Shown here piece by piece: positions 46,703 through 49,730 of a stretch of DNA of 64,000 bases. The notes under the pieces are model-generated. The model was not told the origin of the DNA. It saw only the letters and a program-made list of their open reading frames with translations, and did not search any database. This stretch comes from Cordylochernes scorpioides. Lineage: Eukaryota; Arthropoda; Arachnida; Pseudoscorpiones; Chernetidae. Numbering within the stretch: position 1 is the stretch's first letter; each line of letters opens with the position of its first letter. The stretch lies in NCBI GenBank assembly GCA_030710605.1, contig CP092871.1, positions 68,964,377 to 69,028,376 of the forward strand. The letters are read 5' to 3'. Made by a program: the position numbers and the translations under genes.

Positions 46703-46897
46703 TGTCGCATACCGCGAGATATTTGCATAGTATTGTTTTGTTTTATATATTTTTACATTATGTTTCTTATGAAAGGTTGTTATATTTGCATGTCCGCGAG
46801 AAGCGCGATGTATATATATAGCTAGGAAAAGTAATAAAGTCAGAGTTTTCTTTAGTATGAAATCGTCTCGTGTTAATTCTTGTCGTAGAACACGACA
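46703..46897 (+). repeat. 5' LTR of the kinase element
   Basis: 195 bp, TGTCG...CGACA. It contains TATATATATAGC then AATAAAG about 20 bp later. The ORF ATG at 46857 lies inside the LTR, and another in-frame ATG at 46899 overlaps the primer-binding site. Confidence 0.92.
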
Positions 46898-48638
46898 AAT
46901 GGCGCAGCCGACAGGATCCGCAAGACCTTCCCTGGAAAGCCTCTTAAGGGAGATGGCTGATCAACAAAGCTTAATGATGAGCATTCTTTGTGGAAATAGG
47001 AGAGAAGAATATCTCAGTGAAGAGGATTACTATGAGAGAAAGGAATATCTTAAATATTCAATTGTTGAAGATGAAGAAGAAGAGAAAGAAGAGGCAAATA
47101 TTGAGTCTCTAGAGATTCTTGAAAAGTCTGAAATCAGTACGATGGTGAAGCAGCAACGTTTGATCATGGACTTACTTTCCGAAGTTGAGAAAAAATCCGT
47201 TGAAGCAGATGAAAGTGAAAAGGCTGACGTTGAAAAAAAGTCTGTTGTTGAAGAAAATGAAAAAGCCGAAGTTGAGAAAAATTCAGTTGTAGAAACGGAA
47301 GAAAGTGAAAAAGCCGAAGTTGAGAAAAAATTCGTTGAAGCAGATGAAAGTGAAAGGGCTGAAGTTGAAAAAAATTATGTTGAAGTTGAAGAGGGTGAAA
47401 AAGCCGAAGTTGAGAAAAATTCAGTTATAGAAACTGAAAGTGCAGAGTCTCTTACGAAAGAGGATGTTATTGCTGATATTGATGCAGATAATGCAGGACT
47501 CTGTGATCTTGATGATGCCACTTTCACTCAAGTTGGGGAAAGTCAAAAGTCTCAAGTTGATAAAAAGTCAGTTATAGAAACTGAAAGTGCAGACGATACC
47601 TCTAAACCTTCAGACGATGCCTCTGAGCCTGCAGACGATACCTCTAAGCCTGCAGACGATAACTCTAAGCCTTCAGACGATAACTCTAAGCCTTCAGACG
47701 ATGCCTCTAAGCCTTCAGACGATGCCTCTAAGCCTGCAGACGATAACTCTAAGCCTTCAGACGATAACTCTAAGCCTTCAGACGATAACTCTAAGCCTTC
47801 AGACGAAAAGTCTGCAATTGACGATTCTCAACTTACTAAGGAGTCTGGTACTGGCAAAAAAGAACTTACTAAGGAGTCTGGTACTGGCGAAAAAGAACCT
47901 ACTAAGGAGTCTGGTACTGGCAAAAAAGAACCAAAGCCTGGTACCGGCGAAGAAGCTTTGAGAGAGCTACCTTGTTACGATACTCTATTGGAATCTCTCA
48001 AGAAAGGAATCTATTCGTTTCAAACAAGCGGTGAAAAAAGAAATATGAAATTAGGAATAGGTGATTTCAATAAAGGCAATCACGCAAGACGTCGTTTGTT
48101 AATATTAAAGAAGTTAACACGCTGCCAAAAAGTTTGGATTTATGCTAAAGAATTCAGCCAGATGCAAAAAAGCATGCTTGATAAATATGACATTGATGAT
48201 TTACGAAATGAATTGGCCATCTACAATTCCTTAAGAACCCTAAAAAATGGCCAGGTCAATTTATGTTATCCATATTCCTTTATGCTTGTTAAAGATACTG
48301 AAAAGACGTTTAGGCTTCTCATGAATATCTTTGAAAAAGGAAAACCATGGCCTTACTATTGTGAAGGAGAACGAAAAAATTATTTTGTTTTCCTAATGGA
48401 ATATGGAGGAATAACTCTCGAAACGGCTATCAAATCGAGACTTTCATATGAAAACTTATTAGTATTATTTCGCCAGATTTGTATAATTTTTGCAATTGGT
48501 GAAGAGGAAATTGAACTTTTACATGATGATCTTCATATTAACAATGTTCTAGTTGCAGAAACAGAAGAGAAACTAATCAAATATGAAGTAGCTTCAAAAA
48601 GATTAAAATCCCAACTCTTGGATATATTGCTAAAGTAA
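46857..48638 (+). CDS. Gag-like head, acidic repeats and haspin-like kinase N-part
   Basis: 593 codons. The better start may be the in-frame ATG at 46899 (MAQPTGSARPSLESLLREMA), which reads like the N-terminus of Mag/Gypsy-type Gag. Residues 100-240 are Glu/Lys/Val repeats (EKAEVEKKSV type). Residues 243-318 are DD(N/A/T)SKP(S/A) repeats, and 327-360 TKESGTGKKE repeats. A kinase domain begins about residue 370: Lys in WIYAKEF (431), Glu in NELAIY (452), hinge FLMEYGGITLE (512-522), catalytic loop HDDLHINNVL (556-565) with the catalytic Asp558 and Asn563. LMEYGG.TLE and the D-L-H-x-x-N loop match haspin-type kinases. The frame ends before the DFG motif, which continues in the next frame. Activity is plausible but depends on the frame break. 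Alternative: a viral-type kinase. Confidence 0.85.
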   Translation: MKSSRVNSCRRTRQMAQPTGSARPSLESLLREMADQQSLMMSILCGNRREEYLSEEDYYERKEYLKYSIVEDEEEEKEEANIESLEILEKSEISTMVKQQRLIMDLLSEVEKKSVEADESEKADVEKKSVVEENEKAEVEKNSVVETEESEKAEVEKKFVEADESERAEVEKNYVEVEEGEKAEVEKNSVIETESAESLTKEDVIADIDADNAGLCDLDDATFTQVGESQKSQVDKKSVIETESADDTSKPSDDASEPADDTSKPADDNSKPSDDNSKPSDDASKPSDDASKPADDNSKPSDDNSKPSDDNSKPSDEKSAIDDSQLTKESGTGKKELTKESGTGEKEPTKESGTGKKEPKPGTGEEALRELPCYDTLLESLKKGIYSFQTSGEKRNMKLGIGDFNKGNHARRRLLILKKLTRCQKVWIYAKEFSQMQKSMLDKYDIDDLRNELAIYNSLRTLKNGQVNLCYPYSFMLVKDTEKTFRLLMNIFEKGKPWPYYCEGERKNYFVFLMEYGGITLETAIKSRLSYENLLVLFRQICIIFAIGEEEIELLHDDLHINNVLVAETEEKLIKYEVASKRLKSQLLDILLK

Positions 48639-49654
48639 TCGATTTTGGGAATGCCAGGTGTATTAAGGATATAGATTATAGACAAAGGATGATTAGTGAA
48701 TATGGAAAGAGACCATGTCCAGCTGAGTATTCAGGAGGGAGTCTATTTATGCTGAGTGGACTCTATTTTGAAATGATAAATACGAGTTTGGAACTTCGTG
48801 CAGCACTACCTGAACTGCCAAGATTAACTACATCTCTACAACTGTATGAGGGTTTAATTCAAATCTTAAAAGATTTGGCAATTCTTGAATTCCTGAATGG
48901 TTTTCGTGAAAAGTTAGGTCTTCCTGAAGTTATTGGTCCATCTCAATTTGAATCCATGCTTAGAAATCAAATTCTTGAGGGGCCTTTAAGCAAACTTCTA
49001 ATATGCCTAGCAAAATTTATTGACAATACAGATAACAACTGTTATACTGCTTCTGAAATAATGCGAAGACATTTGGAGACAGTTAATACTACCATTAACG
49101 AAAAGTTAACATTGTTAAGTATCTTTGAATTTGATCTTAAAGATAAGATAATCATTTTTACAGCACTTATTGAAGTAATGATGCAGAAACATGATAGACT
49201 TTGTAAATATGTTAAGAAATCAAGAGATGAGAAAACTAAAGAAGATTTTAGGGTTTATAATCTGTTGAAAACGCCTATTATTCATACAGCTGGTTACTAT
49301 CGTTATCATCTTCCAGGTCTATTTGTTCGATGTGATGTGGAGAACGGAGAAAGTGCTGAATGGAAGTACTATCGACATGATCAAATCTATCCTGAATACT
49401 CGGCTCTTTATGCCAGAAAAGTTGGTAGGCCTAAAAAGATTATTGGGAAAAGAGAAAAGTTGGAAGACCTAGAAAGGTCATTGAACCACCAGGAGTCTCA
49501 TCACGGGAGTGATGAGAGGTCATGGGGGGGGAGTCTGTCGCATACCGCGAGATATTTGCATAGTATTGTTTTGTTTTATATATTTTTACATTATGTTTCT
49601 TATGAAAGGTTGTTATATTTGCATGTCCGCGAGAAGCGCGATGTATATATATAG
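48587..49654 (+). CDS. kinase C-part, second frame of the LTR element
   Basis: The second reading frame is open from 48587 and has its first ATG at 48689. It begins with the missing piece of the kinase: IPTLGYIAKVIDFGNAR, with the metal-binding DFG at 48641-48649. It then goes on for about 300 residues: YGKRPCPAEYSGGSLFMLSG, a mostly helical region, and ARKVGRPKKIIGK (about 49412-49446), an AT-hook-like K-GRPK motif. The last 40 codons lie in the 3' LTR. It overlaps the first frame by about 50 nt. A -1 shift at the run of five A (48596-48600) would link them. Either programmed frameshifting, a mutation, or an assembly error. Confidence 0.75.
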   Translation, partial: SSFKKIKIPTLGYIAKVIDFGNARCIKDIDYRQRMISEYGKRPCPAEYSGGSLFMLSGLYFEMINTSLELRAALPELPRLTTSLQLYEGLIQILKDLAILEFLNGFREKLGLPEVIGPSQFESMLRNQILEGPLSKLLICLAKFIDNTDNNCYTASEIMRRHLETVNTTINEKLTLLSIFEFDLKDKIIIFTALIEVMMQKHDRLCKYVKKSRDEKTKEDFRVYNLLKTPIIHTAGYYRYHLPGLFVRCDVENGESAEWKYYRHDQIYPEYSALYARKVGRPKKIIGKREKLEDLERSLNHQESHHGSDERSWGGSLSHTARYLHSIVLFYIFLHYVSYERLLYLHVREKRDVYI

Positions 49655-49730
49655 CTAGGAAAAGTAATAAAGTCAGAGTTTTCTTTAGTATGAAATCGTC
49701 TCGTGTTAATTCTTGTCGTAGAACACGACA
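49536..49730 (+). repeat. 3' LTR of the kinase element
   Basis: 195 bp, indistinguishable by eye from the 5' LTR. It follows the polypurine tract and a TC dinucleotide, and is followed by the TTACT duplication. Confidence 0.92.

Follow-up and report, generated by a model that had tools for sequence, protein, structure and literature searches.

Identical long terminal repeats around a probable mosaic of captured cellular gene pieces in the pseudoscorpion Cordylochernes scorpioides

We analysed 64,000 nucleotides of the genome of the pseudoscorpion Cordylochernes scorpioides (contig CP092871.1, positions 68,964,377 to 69,028,376; the whole stretch is called the window below). On its plus strand, at 46703-49730, lies an element bounded by long terminal repeats (LTRs). 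The 5' LTR (46703-46897) and the 3' LTR (49536-49730) agree at 195 of 195 bases, start with TGTCG and finish with CGACA (the TG...CA type), and carry TATATATATA (at 46811) and AATAAA (at 46833). Read directly and assigned to neither strand, the target-site duplication TTACT stands on both outer sides, at 46698-46702 on the left and at 49731-49735 on the right. A preliminary description of the same DNA had reported both the identical repeats and the duplication, and both hold to the base. With zero differences between the two repeats, the insertion looks young. Elsewhere in the 64-kb window neither the LTR nor the interior recurs, and the next best LTR match comprises 45 bases.

After the 5' LTR, a plus-strand scan of the window located a primer-binding-site-like sequence, TGGCGCAGCCGACAGGATCC (46900-46919). 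The site itself is thus where it had been described, and its primer is presumably tRNA-Ser. The plus strand of the window has 12 occurrences of TGGCGC, and only the one in the primer site forms TGGCGCAG. At the other end, a G-rich, polypurine-tract-like GGGGGGGGAG (49524-49533) lies two bases upstream of the 3' LTR, again in agreement with the preliminary description. Two long plus-strand frames are open in the interior, the first at 46857-48638, whose in-frame ATG (46899) overlaps TGGCGCAGCCGACAGGATCC, and the second at 48587-49654; when 948 nt of the second (48587-49534) were shuffled base by base, 0 of 2000 shuffles stayed open. Pfam scans of the two frames returned no reverse transcriptase, protease, RNase H or integrase family at E <=1, as the earlier reading of the interior had it. 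This is a genuine LTR retrotransposon structure in which no pol domain was found.

The coding sequence of this copy contains two frame breaks in total. Similarity to a protein kinase crosses from the first to the second frame within their overlap, and because the homology changes frame there, the coding sequence is broken at that point. The second break separates the two AT-hook-like copies of the tail. Each piece of the window was searched separately and was never joined to another across frames.

The first frame opens with the head MAQPTGSARPSLESLLREM and an acidic repetitive linker (together 46899-47954), with arrays of about 45, 21 and 33 nt. The head had been taken for a remnant of Gag, a reading without backing here, as no Gag family appeared at E <=1 in the Pfam scans. 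After head and linker comes a stretch (47955-48194) assigned to an SRR1 domain, of which it makes up the first half. Its assignment comes from P0003, one of four annotated C. scorpioides proteins related to the element (P0001 to P0004), with which it shares 72 of 93 residues, with gaps of 9, 3 and 1 residues; alone, the half gave no Pfam match at E <=10. The first SRR1 half of P0002 likewise had no Pfam match, and the best hits of the SRR1 piece in the PDB were ribosomal proteins (E 0.51). In P0003 the domain is uninterrupted (PF07985; E 4.8e-12 and 46.5 bits for the whole protein, E 4.6e-13 and 49.8 bits for the piece, against a cut-off of 24) and covers profile positions 15-129 of 172 unbroken. 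It thereby resembles other SRR1 proteins, whereas the window has the first half only.

Exactly where the SRR1 domain of P0003 runs on, the kinase starts in the window, in the same frame, so that the SRR1 half and the kinase are joined within the one uninterrupted frame 46857-48638. The second SRR1 half, judged by similarity to P0003, follows the kinase in the P0001 and P0002 models. On this comparison, the kinase appears to have been inserted inside the SRR1 domain in the family of the element, and of the two resulting junctions the window would hold the first. For the P0002 block downstream of the kinase, an MBD-like domain had also been considered, which was rejected because the comparison with P0003 shows the second SRR1 half there.

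The kinase piece extends in the first frame from helix C (LRNELAIYN) through the hinge to the catalytic loop (48195-48638; Pfam Haspin_kinase, 26.9 bits). It continues in the second frame with IDFG and the start of the C-lobe (48587-48892), where 48596-48892 is 90% identical to P0001 residues 583-681. The preliminary description had named the lack of any kinase family as evidence against itself; the window pieces score 25.3 and 26.9 bits with Haspin_kinase (PF12330), just above the cut-off of 25. At E <=1, the window piece had 10 matches in the PDB, eight of them haspin (E 0.001) and two polymerase subunits, and the P0002 piece had eight haspin (1.3e-5) and three polymerase subunits. When a profile was made from the kinase pieces of P0001, P0003 and P0002, the eight best distinct PDB sequences were all haspin (9.3e-10 to 5.2e-9), with TTK as the runner-up at 2.5e-3. 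The PDB alignments cover the region of haspin from the catalytic loop to DYT.

The likeness to haspin (GSG2, PF12330) thus concerns the hinge, the catalytic loop HxDLHxxN and the stretch ahead of the activation segment. The window kinase differs in having nothing before helix C, in being far diverged, and in its DFG, which stands as IDFG in the window, P0001 and P0002, where solved haspin has DYT. What is left of the kinase in the window is, by these comparisons, haspin-like. Several landmarks reported before are in place, namely Glu452, MEYGG (residue 514), HDDLHINN (residue 556) and, in the next frame, DFG. Lys431, in contrast, is on this assignment not part of a kinase beta-3 strand; the WIYAKEF that holds it is inside the SRR1-homologous stretch 47955-48194. 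The haspin match in the window begins at profile position 179 of 364. Kinase similarity in the window begins at helix C, and the Gly-loop and the ATP-binding Lys are absent. With both of them missing, the kinase is probably inactive, and an active kinase from the window copy is, on sequence grounds, unlikely. Lacking the part of the N-lobe that binds ATP, and with its frame broken, it would here be passenger sequence and not a working enzyme.

Past the kinase, 48881-49447 is 91% identical (177/194) to P0002 residues 951-1144 and can weakly be assigned as a DDT-like block, its best Pfam score being 17.7 bits against a cut-off of 22. Against the PDB, the piece found two CRISPR proteins at chance level (best E 0.16). 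AlphaFold jobs gave poor models, with a mean pLDDT (predicted local distance difference test) of 44.7 for the DDT-like block and 29.9 for the other, and a Foldseek search with the first of these was unusable (best E 0.24). In P0002, about 170 residues that include the second SRR1 half separate the end of the kinase from the DDT-like block. The window is without these residues, and the kinase side and the DDT-like side join at a common ILEF. RKVGRPKK, which resembles an AT-hook motif, lies at 49415-49438 in the second frame. A second copy of this type stands in another frame (49453-49476), with a stop right before the purine tract. An AT-hook-like tail had been described earlier and is indeed there, one copy in frame and another out of it. 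A chromatin link of the DDT-like block and the tail is a lead, not a result.

With the kinase part of the first frame as query, a single protein, P0001, was found among 1251 candidates at E 0.001, and a longer region of P0001 found four including P0001 itself, among 3554 candidates at E 0.01. These searches were word-filtered and ran over 5.8 billion proteins, and the cut-offs were met by C. scorpioides proteins only. For residues 1-312 of the second frame, no protein was found at E 0.001 among 1663 candidates limited to about 195-621 amino acids; this limit shut out the long relatives, so that the null result says little. P0001 to P0004 lie on four contigs of 104.7, 173.5, 96.2 and 129.4 Mb. 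As far as the searches reach, relatives therefore occur at more than one locus, where a single locus would have spoken against the preliminary description. The dispersed kinase family that it had suggested is seen in part: there are four annotated relatives on four contigs, but the kinase of the window is shared by two of them (P0001 and P0002, 89-95% identity), diverged in one (P0003) and lacking in one (P0004).

Parts of the element that abut the LTRs recur in these proteins. The MAQP head, which begins in the primer site, is common to the window, P0001 and P0002. In P0002 it is preceded by TRQ, which the LTR end of the window plus one base also encodes. At the other end, the tail HHRSDER is found in P0001 and P0003, and the window has HHGSDER adjoining the purine tract. 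The relatives also include foreign neighbours, namely a Mec-17 acetyltransferase and a mariner-type transposase in P0002, DUF1759 and an aspartic protease in P0003, and DDE_1 in P0004. Their annotated names include GSG2 (haspin), TIGD7 and hypothetical protein, and UniRef names begin "Histone acetyltransferas" and "Peptidase A2". Judged by these parts, P0001 to P0004 fit element copies that were annotated as genes and fused with their neighbours.

Some details of the relatives may be recorded here. Directly after SRR1, P0003 has a diverged kinase (residues 470-720) that may include its own N-lobe and whose catalytic positions read HNE and DFE. It looks inactive by these residues, a possible pseudokinase, and is perhaps nearer to the original capture. 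In P0004, LQTIPL runs in residues 300-380 match the 21-nt array of the window read in another frame, and VMRGHGGGG resembles the purine-tract region in a further frame. Both look like a sign of a gene model that was read through an element copy. In the window itself, the fragment 13023-13270 resembles residues 1716-1800 of P0002, which belong to its transposase part.

We favour the reading, with a probability of about three in four, of a non-autonomous LTR retroelement, young and resident in a pseudoscorpion genome, in which several pieces of cellular genes have been captured and shuffled. From its anatomy, transcription would start in the 5' LTR with priming by a tRNA, and copying and integration would be carried out in trans by the enzymes of an autonomous element. 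The interior would go back to several captured pieces of cellular coding sequence, from SRR1, a haspin-like kinase and possibly a chromatin protein of DDT type, rearranged through template switching or through deletions between short homologies. In turn, the copy in the window seems derived from a longer form, from which the roughly 170 residues would have been lost at the shared ILEF by a deletion or a template jump. SRR1 is whole in P0003 and followed or split by the kinase in others, and the loss is closed at a short repeat, which together point to repeated capture and shuffling. The captured kinase gene of the preliminary description survives here as a haspin-like piece, but it is one part of a mosaic cargo in which no fewer than two unrelated domains, and possibly a DDT-like third, are combined.

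Several observations weigh against this reading. The protein searches showed no cellular donor gene. The haspin assignment weakens beyond the window pieces: the whole first frame scores 22.6 bits and the pieces of P0001 (15.5), P0002 (15.6 and 18.4) and P0003 (16.1) also stay below the cut-off of 25, and a Pfam scan of whole P0001 gave no haspin match. P0003, with SRR1, carries a kinase only about 30% identical to that of the window. In Pfam, PK_Tyr_Ser-Thr (E 1.3e-4) ranks ahead of haspin (0.006) for this kinase, and in the PDB haspin (4e-5) is narrowly ahead of MKK6 (7.1e-4). P0004 has the linker and the start of SRR1 only, and no kinase. Other assignments are similarly thin, as the second SRR1 half of P0002 scores 12.3 bits against a cut-off of 24, and all DDT matches in Pfam are below cut-off (E 0.0038 for the P0002 piece, 0.032 for whole P0002, 0.026 and 0.059 for window pieces). 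The tail HHRSDER is missing from P0002 and P0004, the MAQP start is missing from P0003 and P0004, which begin further in, and we infer LTRs around P0001 to P0004 from head and tail alone. Given the foreign neighbours in these models, their internal order may also be an artefact of predicted introns.

A single capture could account for much of the same data, if the mosaic was already a host gene, or a read-through of neighbouring genes, whose spliced mRNA was taken up once and has suffered deletions since. The parts that the relatives have do come in one and the same order, and P0003, in which SRR1 directly precedes a diverged kinase that may bring its own N-lobe, is arranged as a natural multidomain gene might be. 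However, a kinase that comes after half an SRR1 domain in the window, and between the halves in the models P0001 and P0002, is hard to fit to a working host gene, and the two kinases have only that 30% identity in common. We consider this account unlikely, while giving it real weight. The donor may instead have been a large DNA virus, or another arthropod mobile element, that carried SRR1 and kinase genes. This would agree with a cargo far diverged from known proteins, for which only C. scorpioides proteins met the cut-offs. SRR1 and haspin, though, are cellular families, the kinase groups with cellular haspin in the PDB profile search, and a kinase-alignment scan of IMG/VR gave 115 pattern matches of which none was confirmed (near records may be left out), so that such a source seems very improbable to us.

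Two further accounts fare no better. The helix-C Glu, the catalytic-loop Asp and Asn, and DFG are in order, as they would be in a Gag-headed element with a complete and possibly active haspin-like kinase. Such an element is nevertheless very hard to defend when the Lys-bearing stretch is SRR1, there is no Gly-loop and the haspin match begins only in the middle of the profile, when the frame is broken ahead of DFG, and when the head matches no Gag family. It is also scarcely credible that unrelated coding DNA came to lie between LTR-like repeats by chance or through misassembly. The frame slips are at or near short single-base runs, which are prone to sequencing errors, but the exact LTRs, the duplication, the primer site and the purine tract fit one insertion, and the relatives have in common the head or the tail that abuts the LTRs.

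A young non-autonomous element with shuffled cellular pieces may also have some function beyond its own spread. Less damaged copies could encode a selected chimeric chromatin protein, with a haspin-like fold, a DDT-like block and AT hooks, which either helps the retroelement to locate or mark chromatin for its insertion or has been domesticated by the host. We regard this as a decidedly speculative extension, with the odds well against it. If it were true, an animal LTR element would be building its own targeting factor from captured chromatin genes.

Retroelements that carry a cellular kinase and are moved in trans are familiar from the oncogene-capturing retroviruses. The element in the window differs from these in having no detected gag, pol or env, in consisting of several fused pieces and in the truncation of its kinase. 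Closer in construction is the maize LTR retroelement Bs1, whose chimeric gene was formed from captured fragments of three different host genes (PMC13317346, PMC7264820). Like elements of the Bs1 type, the one in the window joins pieces from two or more unrelated gene families in a single frame, here the SRR1 half and the kinase. Bs1, which may likewise lack a full pol, belongs to a plant and carries pieces of an ATPase, a xylan endohydrolase and a glucanase, whereas ours is from an arachnid and has SRR1, a haspin-like kinase and possibly DDT. Capture by LTR elements can be extensive, with 1343 captured sequences in those of sorghum according to a review (PMC13317346). Among animals, gene capture is reported for a mosquito retrotransposon with a viral glycoprotein (PMC10084718) and for crocodilian endogenous retroviruses (PMC4299795), in both cases apparently of genes other than SRR1 and haspin. 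The matches listed among open-licence full texts include no report of a retroelement carrying haspin or SRR1, and no study of pseudoscorpion retroelements. As an animal case of multi-gene capture with several annotated relatives in one genome, the element would make it possible to trace capture, domain shuffling and spread copy by copy. It is also a warning for annotation, as gene prediction looks to have fused element copies with their neighbours under gene names.

The window holds other mobile sequences. A gypsy-like element on the minus strand (30844-35398) has 218-bp LTRs of 99.1% identity and, by reading, a gag-pol-like frame of 1276 aa. A link between it and the kinase element was considered and dropped, since there is no LTR similarity and the sequence after the LTR is different. 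Also on the minus strand, 41341-45206 has frames like those of a long interspersed nuclear element, one of 889 aa (endonuclease-reverse transcriptase-like) and one of 410 aa with CCHC-type cysteines, both named by reading.

Lastly, some smaller features were observed. A tRNA-family match of 39.9 bits at 26457-26514 does not reach the ends of the model and recurs in part nearby, and ARAGORN calls no tRNA there; it is perhaps a tRNA pseudogene or the head of a short interspersed nuclear element. Three tandem copies of 118 bp lie at 53659-54012, the others being 98% and 97% identical to the first. At 53205-53418, two U6 small nuclear RNA matches (102.2 and 100.4 bits) stand head to head and form a near-perfect palindrome, with 96-nt arms that are 99% complementary and only 2 nt apart, a spacing that leaves no room for separate upstream promoters.

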